Shown here: in pieces, positions 13,411 to 19,488 of the stretch | Numbering within the stretch: position 1 is the first letter of the stretch | How the letters are laid out: each line of letters starts with the position of its first letter | DNA from: a virus | Virus record (IMG/VR): IMGVR_UViG_3300035523_000072 | Coordinates: 1 to 20,024 of that record | Direction: 5' to 3' (one strand) | DNA: 20,024 bases | Notes under the pieces: generated by a model | The model's input: the letters and a program-made list of their open reading frames with translations, nothing else | Database searches by the model: none | What the model was told of the DNA's origin: nothing | Made by a program: the position numbers and the translations under genes

Positions 13411-14268
13411 TTACTTGCCTATCTCATCCCATGGCACGGCTTCACGTCGCGAGGTCGCCGGGAAGGGTATCGGTCGCACGATCACATCGAGCAACTTATC
13501 GGGCAGGCGCTCCATCATCGGCACGCGCTTCAGATCATCCAACTTGCCATTGATCGTCACGCACGTCACCTTGCCGGTGGTGATGCGGTACTCAAACACC
13601 GTCATCAACGCCGGGCCACTGTTGCGCGAGAGGTCGCCCGAACCCAGGTCATCGAACAGCAGCAGGTCCACGGCGCACATCCGCTTCAAATGCGCCTGCT
13701 TCATCTCCCGCTCGCTCTCTGCCGGGATCATGTTGTGTTGCAAGGCGAACGCTGGCCCGCTCTCGTACAGCATCGTCGGCACCTCGGGAGAGAAGCGCCA
13801 GGCCGGGTCAGTATGACGCCGCACGCCGAACTTCCGCCCCCACGCCTCGGCCACCAGCGCCAGCACACTGGTCTTGCCCGACCCCTGCCCACCGCACAGC
13901 GCCAGCCCCTTGCCGTGCTCGTGTGCCCAGGCGATGTGCTCCAGGTAATGCCGGATGATCTTCCGCGCCGGGGCATCCGTGATGCCGCTGATGCGCTTAC
14001 TGCCGTCCACGTACTTCGCCTCAAAACCCGCCATACCGGCAATACTGGGCGTGGCGCAGAACGCCTGCCACTCCTCCGCCGTCGCCGGGAAATCAGTCGG
14101 GAAGATCGGCGGTGAAGGCTGCGAGCTCGGCGCGGTCAGCCTCACTGGCGCATCCGGGAGGAAGGGACGTCCGCGCTTGGCCGCGTCCTCTTCCTGTCGC
14201 AGCACGAGCGCCTGCCACTCTCCCCGGTCCTTCGGACGTGTGCCCGCTTTGGTCACGAACTGTAGCAT
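13411..14268 (-). CDS. DnaC/IstB-type AAA+ helicase loader
   Basis: The start is taken at ATG 14268 (MLQFVTKAGTRP) because GAGGAGG lies 9 nt upstream; this gives 285 aa. The ATPase core begins near residue 100: Walker A 'CGGQGSGKTSVLAL' (~125-138), Walker B 'VDLLLFDDLGSGD' (~200-212), sensor-like 'VTCVTINGKLDDLK' and the box VII-like 'MERLPDKLLDVIV'. The N-terminal ~75 residues are proline-rich and probably mediate a partner contact. It should load the host replicative helicase onto the phage origin, as lambda P or DnaC do. It follows the replication initiator, which it overlaps by 176 nt in another frame. If that overlap is an artefact, ATG 14034 is an alternative start. Confidence 0.85.
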   Translation of the reverse strand: MLQFVTKAGTRPKDRGEWQALVLRQEEDAAKRGRPFLPDAPVRLTAPSSQPSPPIFPTDFPATAEEWQAFCATPSIAGMAGFEAKYVDGSKRISGITDAPARKIIRHYLEHIAWAHEHGKGLALCGGQGSGKTSVLALVAEAWGRKFGVRRHTDPAWRFSPEVPTMLYESGPAFALQHNMIPAESEREMKQAHLKRMCAVDLLLFDDLGSGDLSRNSGPALMTVFEYRITTGKVTCVTINGKLDDLKRVPMMERLPDKLLDVIVRPIPFPATSRREAVPWDEIGK

Positions 14269-15301
14269 CTCGGTAATCCTCCTCCTCAAGTCTCTCTCGC
14301 AAATCCCGCAGGGCATACTCCGCCATGCGCCCAATGATCACCGCCGGGCAGGACGCCTGCCGCAAATCGGCCAGGTTCGTCGGACGCCGCAGGCGCAAGG
14401 TGATCTCCTGCACATCGTCCACCTGCAACCGCTGCGCCGCCGCCTGCAGGTCGCGCAGGTTCGATTCCACGCCCTCCAGCGTCGCCGCCGGGTACACCCC
14501 GGCATCAGCCAGCGGACGGGCGTTGTACTTGGCCACCTCATCGCTGAATCGTCCCAACAACGGCCACCGGACCGATTCCCCCGCAACGGGTGGTGGGGTG
14601 TCCGTGTTCGTATCTAGCTCTACTACCAAACCACCAACTACGGGTATACGGTTTACGGTATACGGAGTACGGTTACGGGGATCGCATACGGTATAGTCCA
14701 AGGTATGCGATACCGTACCCCCCTGTGTATCGCTATGTGTATGCGATACCGTATCGCATACCTTCGCGTCAATTTCCCCGCCATCCTGCGCCGGAGCGAA
14801 CCCCGGCAAATACGCCCCAGCCTTCTCCTGTAAGCTCAAAAGGAGCGTAATCCACCGCTCTTTCTCCTGCGGATTCATCTGCTCATCTTCCAGCGGATTG
14901 CGCAAAATCTCCCGCGCCACGTCCAAAAACACCGGGGAATTAGGCAGTTCTTTCAGAATACTGGTGGCCCCCACCGCGCTCTTGCCATTACAGATCGGGT
15001 TAAGATCGAAATGGTTTTTCACCCAAACTACGCGGGAATTTTCATCGAAGGCGATAAAACCGCGCGAAGAAACGAAAGAAGTGATTATTTTTTTCACCCG
15101 GCGCAGGCTAAGCCCCAGGTCATCCGCCAACGCCGGAATCGACAGCACATAGCACCCCAGCGCCGTCTGCGCCGGGTGCAGCGCCAGGTAAAAGTACACA
15201 CGCTGCTCATCCGCATCGAGCCCGCGCAGTGTTGTGTTAAACAGATTATTCGCCAACTTCGTATACCGTTGCCGGTCCGCCTTGGCAATATATCGCCCCA
15301 T
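14093..15301 (-). CDS. Phage replication initiator with winged-helix-like N-terminus
   Basis: A 402-aa protein. Residues ~30-105 look like a winged helix ('LDADEQRVYFYLALHP', 'LSIPALADDLGLSLRRVKKIITSFVSSRGFIAFDENSRVVWVKNHF'), the organisation of DnaD/replisome-organiser and lambda O-like initiators. Residues ~170-240 form a T/P/G-rich linker with repeated 'TVSHT' (twice) encoded by the repeat block at 14641-14761. A C-terminal helical region follows ('LEGVESNLRDLQAAAQRLQVDD', 'EYALRDLRERLEEEDYRD'). The final ~60 residues are G/R/A-rich and overlap the helicase loader out of frame. It likely binds the repeats inside its own gene and recruits the loader. Ribosome site AGGA is 6 nt before ATG 15301; 15 nt separate it from the methyltransferase gene. 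Confidence 0.7.
   Translation of the reverse strand: MGRYIAKADRQRYTKLANNLFNTTLRGLDADEQRVYFYLALHPAQTALGCYVLSIPALADDLGLSLRRVKKIITSFVSSRGFIAFDENSRVVWVKNHFDLNPICNGKSAVGATSILKELPNSPVFLDVAREILRNPLEDEQMNPQEKERWITLLLSLQEKAGAYLPGFAPAQDGGEIDAKVCDTVSHTHSDTQGGTVSHTLDYTVCDPRNRTPYTVNRIPVVGGLVVELDTNTDTPPPVAGESVRWPLLGRFSDEVAKYNARPLADAGVYPAATLEGVESNLRDLQAAAQRLQVDDVQEITLRLRRPTNLADLRQASCPAVIIGRMAEYALRDLRERLEEEDYRDATVRDQSGHTSEGPGRVAGARAATGRGRGQARTSLPPGCASEADRAELAAFTADLPD
14641..14761. repeat. Iteron-like repeat block inside the initiator gene; candidate replication origin
   Basis: The first part holds TACGG at 14647, 14654, 14661, 14668 and 14674 (7,7,7,6-bp spacing) and again at 14687. The second part holds a 15-bp direct repeat GTATGCGATACCGTA at 14703-14717 and 14739-14753, and GTATCGC at 14727 and 14751. 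It also holds a perfect 23-bp palindrome at 14739-14761 with 11-bp arms GTATGCGATAC and GTATCGCATAC. The nearby 14681-14695 segment ATCGCATACGGTATA is an inverted partial copy. Lambda-type origins lie in the middle of their own initiator gene, with iterons bound by the initiator. Confidence 0.7.
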
Positions 15302-15316: not shown

Positions 15317-16192
15317 TTAAAACAAACTCGGCTGTAATTGCCGGGCAGCCGCTGGATTGATCCACAGCACTTCCTGCCGCTCTCGCGCCCCGTCAGCCAT
15401 CGCCTTGCGGTGCACCTGGTGCCACGCGCCATACAGTTCCTCATACAACGCACTGGGATAGCCGGAGAGTATGACCATGCCCTGCACTGCATGTAATCGC
15501 TCGGCCAAGGCGCGGTGATCGTCGTCGCTCATCTCGTGGCGGTAATCAGGAATGTCATCAGTTCGCGTCGAGAGCACGTACGGTGGATCGCAATAGAACA
15601 GCGTATCCTGCCGGTCATGCTGACGGATAATGTCCAGGGCTGACCGTTGCTCGATCACCACGCCACGCAAACGCTCGACGAAGGTCTGTATCTCGACCGG
15701 ATAATACTGCCAGTCGTGCGCCGGCGTAGAGCCCGACCGCGATGAGTTGGCGCGAAACCCTGTCGGCGCCCGCCATACCGAGGCGCGTGTACGCATACCG
15801 CGCGGTTTCTTCTCGTGCAAGGCATTCGATCCGAACCCCATAAAGGATTTGATGATAGTACGCCTGGCGCGCTCAATAGCATCGTCCGTGGGATAATACG
15901 CCTCGGCGAACTCCTCACGAGAAAACGGCGTCGTGAACAATAGTCGTTCGAGCTGCTTCGCCGTCTCTTCCGAGCGTAGCACGCGAAACACGTTCACGAC
16001 CTCACCGTCAAGCTCGTTATAGACCTCACTATACGTGCGCGGCTTCTGCATAAGCACGCTCGCCGCGCCACCGTAAGGCTCGACATAAATCCGGTGCGGA
16101 GGAAAGTGAGCGATCACCCACGGTGCAATTTTCCACTTCCCCCCGTGATATCGCAGTACCGGCCTGCGCGGTGCATCAATGCTTGGCATCAT
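15317..16192 (-). CDS. D12-class DNA N6-adenine methyltransferase (Dam-like)
   Basis: The protein carries the D12/Dam-family motifs in order: 'RYHGGKWKIAPWVIAHFP' near the N-terminus, the SAM-binding motif 'VEPYGGAASVLM' (~37-48), 'NELDGEVVNVFRVLR' and the catalytic 'YCDPPY' (DPPY at ~202-205). It transfers methyl groups from SAM to adenine N6. The target cannot be read from the sequence; GATC is the commonest for this family. AAAGG lies 8 nt before ATG 16192 (291 aa); ATG 16198 is an alternative. No cognate restriction enzyme gene adjoins it, so it is probably an orphan phage enzyme protecting DNA from host restriction or marking the replication origin. It is followed closely by the initiator. 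Confidence 0.9.
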   Translation of the reverse strand: MMPSIDAPRRPVLRYHGGKWKIAPWVIAHFPPHRIYVEPYGGAASVLMQKPRTYSEVYNELDGEVVNVFRVLRSEETAKQLERLLFTTPFSREEFAEAYYPTDDAIERARRTIIKSFMGFGSNALHEKKPRGMRTRASVWRAPTGFRANSSRSGSTPAHDWQYYPVEIQTFVERLRGVVIEQRSALDIIRQHDRQDTLFYCDPPYVLSTRTDDIPDYRHEMSDDDHRALAERLHAVQGMVILSGYPSALYEELYGAWHQVHRKAMADGARERQEVLWINPAAARQLQPSLF

Positions 16193-16463
16193 ATACATGA
16201 CCTTTCGCCAACTTCAGCGCGACGCGAATGAGTTCCACAGCCTGGCGTGACGGGTTGCGAGTCGTGAGGTAGCCGAGAGGATAATTGACGAACGCTATCC
16301 AGCACCCGTCCGCATAGTCCTTATCCGCGCCGATAGAACGTTTTAAGGCATTGCGGAACTGCTGACGTGTCATCAAGTCGATGCCACGCCGCAAAGTGTT
16401 AAGTCGATCAAGCAAGAGAATCCCCTCCGCCTCAAGCGAATCATGGTTCAGACACCGCTTCAT
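16176..16463 (-). CDS. 95-aa protein of unknown function, first member of repeat-leader pair
   Basis: The frame starts at ATG 16463, overlapping the previous stop as ATGA, and encodes 95 aa. Residues 3-15 (RCLNHDSLEAEGI) are identical to the neighbouring 95-aa protein because both are coded by the 54-bp duplicated sequence. The rest is unrelated: 'MTRQQFRNALKRSIGADKDYADGCWIAFVNYPLGYLTTR' and a basic C-terminus 'VELIRVALKLAKGH'. Translation could instead start at TTG 16418, six bases after GGAGGGG within the repeat, or at ATG 16373; the repeated peptide would then not be made. I do not recognise a family. The end overlaps the methyltransferase start. Confidence 0.6.
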   Translation of the reverse strand: MKRCLNHDSLEAEGILLLDRLNTLRRGIDLMTRQQFRNALKRSIGADKDYADGCWIAFVNYPLGYLTTRNPSRQAVELIRVALKLAKGHVYDAKH

Positions 16464-18276: not shown

Positions 18277-18971
18277 GGACGTGTCTCCGCTGCCTGCGGT
18301 CCAAAGATCAACGGCAGTGCTTCCGCCAATTGTACGGCCAGCGGTATCATCGCCTCACGCATTTGTGGGTGGGCGGCGTGAGCGGTGCGCAGGGCGATGA
18401 TGTGACGCCATTCCCGCAGGTTGGCCTTGACGACGATGTGCGTCGCTAGCGAGTTCGGAAGCACAGTGCGTGCCTGCTGTGGTTGCCATCCATGTTGCAG
18501 CAGTTTCCCGTAATCACGCTCGGCAACAGCCATATGCCAGAACCACCAGGAATCCTCTTGCGATACGGCGAGGGGAAGGTCGAGAGAGATTCCATACAGT
18601 CCATCCCAACAGATGGGATAGATGCCTGTTGGCACCGTCGTAACCCAGGGAGGAAGCACGAAGGCAATATCATCGCTGCCGTAGTTGCAATACCGTGTCG
18701 ACTCCTGCGCGAAGCTGGCCAGGCGGTGACGCACCAGCTCATGGCTCACGCCTCGGTCAACGGTAAAGAGCACGGTCAGATCAACGAACTCCAGCATTGC
18801 CTCATGCCCACGGGCAATCAGTTGTCCCACGAGCCTGCGCGCTGACGTTCCGTCGTCGGTAATACGCTCCTCACTGCGATAACACGTCCGCGCGGCGCGC
18901 TCGATCGCGCGATAGACGGCGGTCTCATCGACCGCGGTGAGCAATTCATAACCAGGCTTAATGATGCGCAT
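18273..18971 (-). CDS. thyX: Flavin-dependent thymidylate synthase ThyX
   Basis: The start is set at ATG 18971 (MRIIKPGYELL), with GGAGGAG 9 nt upstream; the frame to 19025 only reads into the preceding gene. The 232-aa product carries the ThyX signature R-H-R-x(2)-S-x(3)-E-S-x-R-Y as 'RHRLASFAQESTRY' (~81-94), preceded by 'HEAMLEFVDLTVLFTVDRGVSHELV'. The C-terminal 'KANLREWRHIIALR' and 'AHPQMREAM' bind substrate and flavin in this family. It makes dTMP from dUMP using FAD, NADPH and methylene-tetrahydrofolate, supplying thymidylate during phage replication. The gene overlaps the DUF1643 gene by 14 nt and the next gene by 4 nt. All signature residues seen are intact. Confidence 0.94.
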   Translation of the reverse strand: MRIIKPGYELLTAVDETAVYRAIERAARTCYRSEERITDDGTSARRLVGQLIARGHEAMLEFVDLTVLFTVDRGVSHELVRHRLASFAQESTRYCNYGSDDIAFVLPPWVTTVPTGIYPICWDGLYGISLDLPLAVSQEDSWWFWHMAVAERDYGKLLQHGWQPQQARTVLPNSLATHIVVKANLREWRHIIALRTAHAAHPQMREAMIPLAVQLAEALPLIFGPQAAETRP

Positions 18972-19488
18972 TTGCGTCTTCTCCTCCCACTTTCCCCAGC
19001 TTCCAGACAAACGGCACCACGTCATAGCTCAAATAGAGCGGATGCCCCGGTTCCCCGATAGCGCACATCTTCAGGGCATACAGCGTGACGCCCTCTGCCA
19101 CCAGCGCCTGCGCGACGTTGCGCCCGCGCTCCATACAGGCCCCGTGCGTGCCCCACGCGCAAATCACCCTGCCCGCCCGACGCGCCCAAAAATGGATACA
19201 CGCGTCATTGTCCGCGCCGACAGGATCATCCGCTTCGTACAGCGCCGTAGGGTCGGTTGACCACAGGGCGAACAGGTTCGTAACAATCAGACCGCCGAAA
19301 CCGTCAGCCCGCGCCCTCCGTTCACAACGCTCCACCGTGGGATCGTTCGTCACCTCGTCCGCCGTGCTCGGGTTGAGCATGACGAAGTTGACGTATGGAA
19401 GCATCTCATCCCAAATACGCGAAAGCATGTAACGATAGCGGCGATCCGACGAGAACTCGGCGGCGGTTTGTGTAAAGAGGTCGCTCAT
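18958..19488 (-). CDS. DUF1643 family protein
   Basis: A 176-aa protein with the DUF1643 pattern: 'RYRYMLSRIWDE', 'NFVMLNPSTADEVTNDPTVERCERRA', 'GFGGLIVTNLFALWSTDP', 'DPVGADNDACIHFWA', 'VICAWGTHG' and 'GHPLYLSYDV'. The near-invariant MLNPSTAD, NDPTxxRC, NLFA, DPxGxxND and AWG blocks are all present, so it is probably intact. The biochemical function of the family is not established to my knowledge; it is frequent in phages and mobile elements. The start overlaps the upstream stop (ATGA, 19485-19488), and the gene overlaps ThyX by 14 nt. Confidence 0.88.
   Translation of the reverse strand: MSDLFTQTAAEFSSDRRYRYMLSRIWDEMLPYVNFVMLNPSTADEVTNDPTVERCERRARADGFGGLIVTNLFALWSTDPTALYEADDPVGADNDACIHFWARRAGRVICAWGTHGACMERGRNVAQALVAEGVTLYALKMCAIGEPGHPLYLSYDVVPFVWKLGKVGGEDANAHH

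Follow-up and report, generated by a model that had tools for sequence, protein, structure and literature searches.

A candidate theta-type replication origin inside the initiator gene of a phage fragment, and its two-part layout in related phages

The gene for a putative replication initiator, carried by a linear 20,024-bp phage fragment from IMG/VR (referred to in its whole length as the window), contains a dense block of short DNA repeats that are translated as part of the protein. This raises the question of whether the repeats are kept for the peptide that they encode or for the DNA itself and, in the latter case, what they do. The best explanation of the evidence as a whole, with an estimated probability of about 0.87, would be a theta-type phage replication origin lying inside its own initiator gene. 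This reading draws on the excess of repeats, their position in a linker, the homology of the winged-helix domain, the presence of a helicase-loader gene, and the layout seen in relatives.

The initiator gene and its neighbourhood

The window encodes capsid, portal, Clp-type protease, terminase, and replication proteins, and its main genes are all on the minus strand. The features of the initiator locus are collected in Table 1.

Table 1. Coordinates of the features at the initiator locus of the window
Feature	Position	Strand	Basis
DnaC-like helicase-loader ORF	13411-14334	-	phrog_50/phrog_3277 match
Initiator (replisome-organizer-like), 402 aa	14093-15301	-	PHROG matches and fold match
N-terminal winged-helix domain, residues 1-165	14807-15301	-	AlphaFold2, mean pLDDT 87
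Disordered linker holding the repeats, residues 166-253	14543-14806	-	pLDDT mostly below 50
7-bp tandem tract of CCGTA units	14639-14678	-	sequence
Partial iteron ACCGTATGCGAT	14681-14692	-	sequence
15-bp iteron GTATGCGATACCGTA	14703-14717	+	exact repeat of 14739-14753, 36 bp apart
23-bp palindromic iteron, GTATGCGATAC C GTATCGCATAC	14739-14761	.	11+1+11
18-bp inverted repeat	arms 14700-14717 and 14747-14764	.	94% complementary

The initiator matches the families phrog_1701 (DnaD-like, E 1.6e-12), phrog_25711 (3e-10), and phrog_6251 (replisome organizer, 8e-4), and its N-terminal winged-helix domain is homologous to the replisome organizers of these three families. Its best viral fold match in BFVD is annotated as 'Replisome organizer' (E 5.6e-6, TMq 0.69), and the Pfam match of the N-terminal domain to HTH_36 is weak, falling under the curated cut-off. 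Searches of PHROGs and Pfam return no match to O-like replication-initiation families, so that homology to lambda O is not indicated. The winged-helix domain is presumed to bind the iterons.

The likely true start of the loader is the ATG at 14268, which is preceded by GAGGAGG. This start sits about 176 nt within the initiator ORF (14093-14268), whose last 57 or so residues have a mostly unstructured look; the overlap is either a genuine long one or due to a frameshift in the recorded sequence. The next gene upstream of the initiator encodes a D12-class (Dam-like) adenine methyltransferase (15317-16198), and a GATC is found at 14680, within the repeat region; a link between methylation and origin control is possible. 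Farther away, positions 18958-19488 encode a DUF1643 protein with a strong match to Pfam PF07799, beside a thymidylate-synthase-like gene.

A block of repeats in the disordered linker

The repeat block spans 14639-14764 and is read in frame as residues ~180-222 of the initiator, within the predicted disordered linker, just as the first-pass annotation had placed it. On the plus strand, TACGG starts at 14639, 14647, 14654, 14661, 14668, 14674, and 14687, in steps of 8, 7, 7, 7, 6, and 13 bp. The array that had been described as about six such units within 14641-14761 is therefore real, with seven copies rather than six and a start 2 bp outside that interval. Two copies of CCGTA follow at 14713 and 14749. 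The two exact 15-bp repeats 36 bp apart are present as described, and the reported perfect 23-bp palindrome does have perfect arms, which flank a single unpaired central base instead of pairing throughout. The palindrome is nested in the 18-bp inverted repeat.

Read along the coding strand, the block begins with the 23-bp palindrome, GTATGCGATAC-G-GTATCGCATAC, and continues with a weak copy, the second 15-mer (TACGGTATCGCATAC), the partial ACCGTATGCGAT, and finally the 7-bp tract, with the units CCGTAA CCGTACT CCGTATA CCGTAAA CCGTATA CCCGTAG. The centres of the iteron half-sites lie at 14756, 14744, 14708, and 14684, spaced by 12, 36, and 24 bp. Iterons and tandem units have the core CCGTA in common, and the earlier suggestion that two different proteins bind the two repeat types finds no support here.

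The density of this block is not accounted for by the protein sequence. CCGTA, the most frequent 5-mer at the block, occurs nine times, a count that any 5-mer reached in 4 of 5000 synonymous recodings of the same peptide and that CCGTA itself reached in none of the 5000. Within the 20 kb, only segments at the repeat site contain a 5-mer at this count; a second dense 5-mer segment near 18.8 kb turned out to be ordinary GC-rich coding sequence. The tandem score of the initiator gene is 15, against 10 or less for the other genes of the window that were tested, and its 7-bp periodicity was matched in 10 of 2000 synonymous shuffles, which makes this array one of the weaker 7-bp examples. Taken singly and with the peptide fixed, the palindrome (107/5000) and the 15-mer (37/5000) are only moderately rare. 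The repeats of the window exceed the expectation from synonymous codons.

The geometry of the tract bears on the possibility that selection for flexibility or charge acted on a low-complexity linker peptide and that the repeats arose as a by-product. As 7 bp is not a whole number of codons, the tract rotates the reading frame, and the peptide encoded there, NRTPYTVNRIPVV, is non-repetitive, so that the array cannot derive from selection on a repeated peptide. Neither the 7-bp nor the 11-bp period found in relatives yields repeated peptides.

In base composition, the repeat area is about 50% AT, compared with about 40% around it, and falls roughly within the least stable 4-15%, with the tract in the position of an unwinding element; a strongly A+T-rich element of this kind is not seen at the repeat region. 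No terminator, tRNA, or RNA family was found at the repeat site, nor any second repeat cluster elsewhere in the fragment. The cumulative GC skew, which had been proposed as a check, turns near 13.0 kb and not at 14.7 kb, and weighs neither for nor against an origin.

The two-part layout in related phages

In protein searches, neither IMG/VR nor genome_contigs yielded a close relative of the initiator; searches of genomes by class and phylum gave little, and a terminase scan led to one short contig. A locus matched by a looser palindrome pattern (L007) is an unrelated gene and was judged a chance hit. As the searches turned up nothing closely related to the window, the argument from conservation rests on distant kin rather than on this locus. 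These distant relatives come from profile searches, and all that were checked fall in the same PHROG families as the initiator.

The closest of them (L008, 35% identity) has the two-part linker in DNA that is unrelated to that of the window, with GCCTTTGGGGAAGCCTTTGGGG iterons followed by ACACTGC units at 7 bp. Its 7-bp array, like those of L080 and L221, was reached in 0 of 2000 synonymous shuffles. Similarly, AAACCGTT sites precede TGTAAC units in L110, and AACCGTTT/GAACGGTT sites precede AACCGT units in L111. Among named phages, CATACGGTATCGATACGGTATCC precedes (GAAAAA)n in Geobacillus virus E2, GATACAGTATC precedes 7-bp AGAGAAA units in Psychrobacillus phage PVJ1, and ACGATACGTCCC precedes 7-bp AAGAAAT units in Bacillus phage 268TH008; the relatives with 7-bp tracts include ones from Rickettsiella, Psychrobacillus phages, and Bacillus phages. 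A tandem-array score of at least 12 is reached by 88 of 89 nonredundant initiators, the best-scoring array being in some of them the 11-bp iterons and not the 6-7-bp tract.

The iteron sequence and the large palindrome had both been taken as specific to this element. The exact 23-mer is indeed found nowhere else in IMG/VR, but a large palindrome as such is not peculiar to the window, as a sister phage initiator (L003) has an unrelated 23-bp palindrome of its own in the same place. These comparisons indicate that the exact iterons are particular to the window phage and that the architecture is widespread in related phages. A GATAC core common to the iterons of the window and of Firmicutes phages is suggestive, at a frequency that is not significant (189/1000 with the window peptide fixed). 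In many relatives (among them L003, L008, L093, L110, L111, L157, and L163), iteron-like DNA is also found in the codons of the recognition helix (wHTH residues ~58-76, e.g., EGASKGL or DKRLTKPFAKL), so that the putative DNA-reading helix and a copy of its putative site occupy the same DNA; this was not seen in the window.

The most informative comparison is offered by a sister family of proteobacterial MR[DE]Y-type initiators. In 67 nonredundant members of it, AAGCCCCTTCG iterons with 11-bp phasing end in AAGC and run at zero spacing into a (CARGAN)n tract. In 59 of these members the tract is read as QEQEQE, and in the other 8 (L109, L137, L142, L152, L153, L162, L164, and L183, with (CAGGAN)n) the reading frame is shifted by one and gives GAGAGA or GTGTGT. 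On the tree of the DNA-binding domain, six frame changes are needed, at least four of which are independent and forced by well-supported branches, and these 8 members are natural frame-shift experiments on a candidate in-gene origin. Where sisters share an amino acid in the iteron block, its codons are 87.6% identical, as compared with 49% for the same amino acids and the same pairs in the winged-helix domain. Codon identity in the tract is looser (58.9%), and its third positions vary between A and G.

The sister family is also where a by-product of the peptide finds support, since many of its tracts encode (QE)n or (EK)n and, taken alone, show a DNA repeat no stronger than that of synonymous shuffles. 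The argument is consequently carried by the frame switches and the 7-bp cases. The reading of the same tract DNA as QEQE or as GAGA/GTGT, together with the strong conservation of synonymous sites in the iterons, already contradicts this explanation for the sister family and makes it extremely unlikely in general. The frame switches and the conserved iteron codons argue instead that iterons and tract alike are selected as DNA, which is what an in-gene origin predicts. The first-pass annotation had proposed a comparison of this kind, in which retention of the linker peptide but not of the DNA repeats would count against an origin; the opposite is observed, with the DNA repeats kept and the peptide, or even the frame, changed. 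Its proposal of an origin in the initiator linker, followed by a helicase-loader gene, is well supported by repeat excess, homology, and relatives.

Selection on the DNA could also reflect an operator, through which the initiator represses its own operon or blocks transcription, with replication starting elsewhere. A repressor would be in keeping with the palindromic sites and the winged-helix fold of the protein, and the best PDB matches of the domain are generic MarR/ArsR-type winged-helix regulators, although these are insignificant (E above 0.01). However, the site lies about 540 bp within the gene, its surroundings show no promoter-like match, and the layout of iterons plus tract is kept across phages with a loader or helicase as the next gene, which leaves an operator as a very improbable explanation. 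It is very unlikely that the block is a recombination, packaging, or partition site located in the initiator gene by happenstance: the 23-bp palindrome and the direct repeats could suit a recombinase or a centromere site, but dozens of initiators, from phages that are unrelated, have such a block at the orthologous position, the sister consensus leaves zero spacing between iterons and tract, and the genes tested with PHROGs and Pfam included no recognisable recombinase.

Possible mechanism and relation to known systems

For an in-gene origin, the following mechanism is proposed. The winged-helix domain, probably in dimeric form, would bind the palindromic iterons and nucleate a complex. The adjacent 7-bp tract would then be the place where the strands open, or where one strand is taken up by the initiator or the loader, after which the DnaC-like loader would place the host DnaB helicase. 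As for the peptide of the linker, it would be a mostly passive product of the DNA sequence. By its position, the tandem tract would replace the A+T-rich opening element of lambda and SPP1. The tract has a mean of 51% GC in the sisters, and is thus not A+T-rich, and is only mildly unstable in the window, so that recognition by sequence, perhaps in single-stranded form, is more likely than simple melting. The fuller proposal, in which the 6-7-bp tract of this group acts as a separate sequence-specific origin element for single-strand uptake by initiator or loader, in place of the A+T-rich element, is tentative and rather doubtful.

In-gene phage origins are so far known from few models. The layout described here, with palindromic or helically phased iterons followed directly by a 6-7-bp tract, is met repeatedly in phages that are very diverse and whose sequences are unrelated, and would offer a simple rule to locate origins in uncultured phages. 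It also raises the question of which factor reads a repeated tract that lacks A+T richness and yet persists through changes of reading frame.

The initiators of lambda and SPP1 both bind to repeats within their own genes and open the DNA next to them, and DnaB is delivered by a loader (PMC5043065, PMC7466680, PMC6316719). The lambda iterons lie beside the opening region, inside gene O (PMC5043065), and are inverted repeats bound by initiator dimers (PMC5043065, PMC7466680). The window resembles lambda O/ori-lambda in its mid-gene location, inverted-repeat iterons, adjoining candidate opening element, and helicase-loader gene after the initiator. However, lambda has four 19-bp iterons, of a different sequence, and a 40-bp A+T-rich region, whereas the window has a 7-bp tract without strong A+T richness. 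In SPP1, direct repeats bound by the initiator lie inside gene 38, with the loader gene next to it (PMC6316719), an arrangement of gp38/oriL that the window likewise resembles; SPP1 differs in its AT-rich unwinding element and in having, besides oriL, the origin oriR, whereas the 20-kb fragment showed no second repeat cluster. Of the traits of the lambda O/SPP1 gp38 class, the window has repeats in the initiator's own gene, beyond the coding need, and a DnaC-like loader immediately downstream; where an A+T-rich unwinding element would adjoin the repeats, it has a tandem tract in an area of about 50% AT and moderate instability.

Homologous counterparts are the replisome organizers of phrog_1701, phrog_25711, and phrog_6251, exemplified by those of Geobacillus virus E2, Psychrobacillus phage PVJ1, and Klebsiella phage ST974-OXA48phi18.2, which also have iterons in the linker followed by a 6-7-bp tandem tract. 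Linker repeats beyond the coding need are indicated for the relatives by conservation and for the window by shuffles, and the E2 iterons (GATACGGTATC) are similar to those of the window (GATACGGTATCGCATAC). In contrast, no C-terminal domain common to these proteins and the window initiator is detectable, and tract and iteron sequences vary by phage.

By analogy only, the layout recalls bacterial oriC, where DnaA-boxes are followed by the DnaA-trios/DnaD element, that is, double-strand sites and then a short-period repeat that acts in single-stranded form; Bacillus subtilis DnaD shows strand-specific recognition in repeated origin DNA (PMC10201434). As part of the tentative proposal above, the tract might be a phage counterpart of the DnaA-trios with a longer step. 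The period is 6-7 and not 3, the initiator has no DnaA homology, and the window tract lacks the TnnT motif of PMC10201434, since neither of its strands has a pair of T residues three positions apart. The repeats are with high probability an in-gene origin, which is a known arrangement, and the tandem second module is a variant of it as judged against the open-licence literature.
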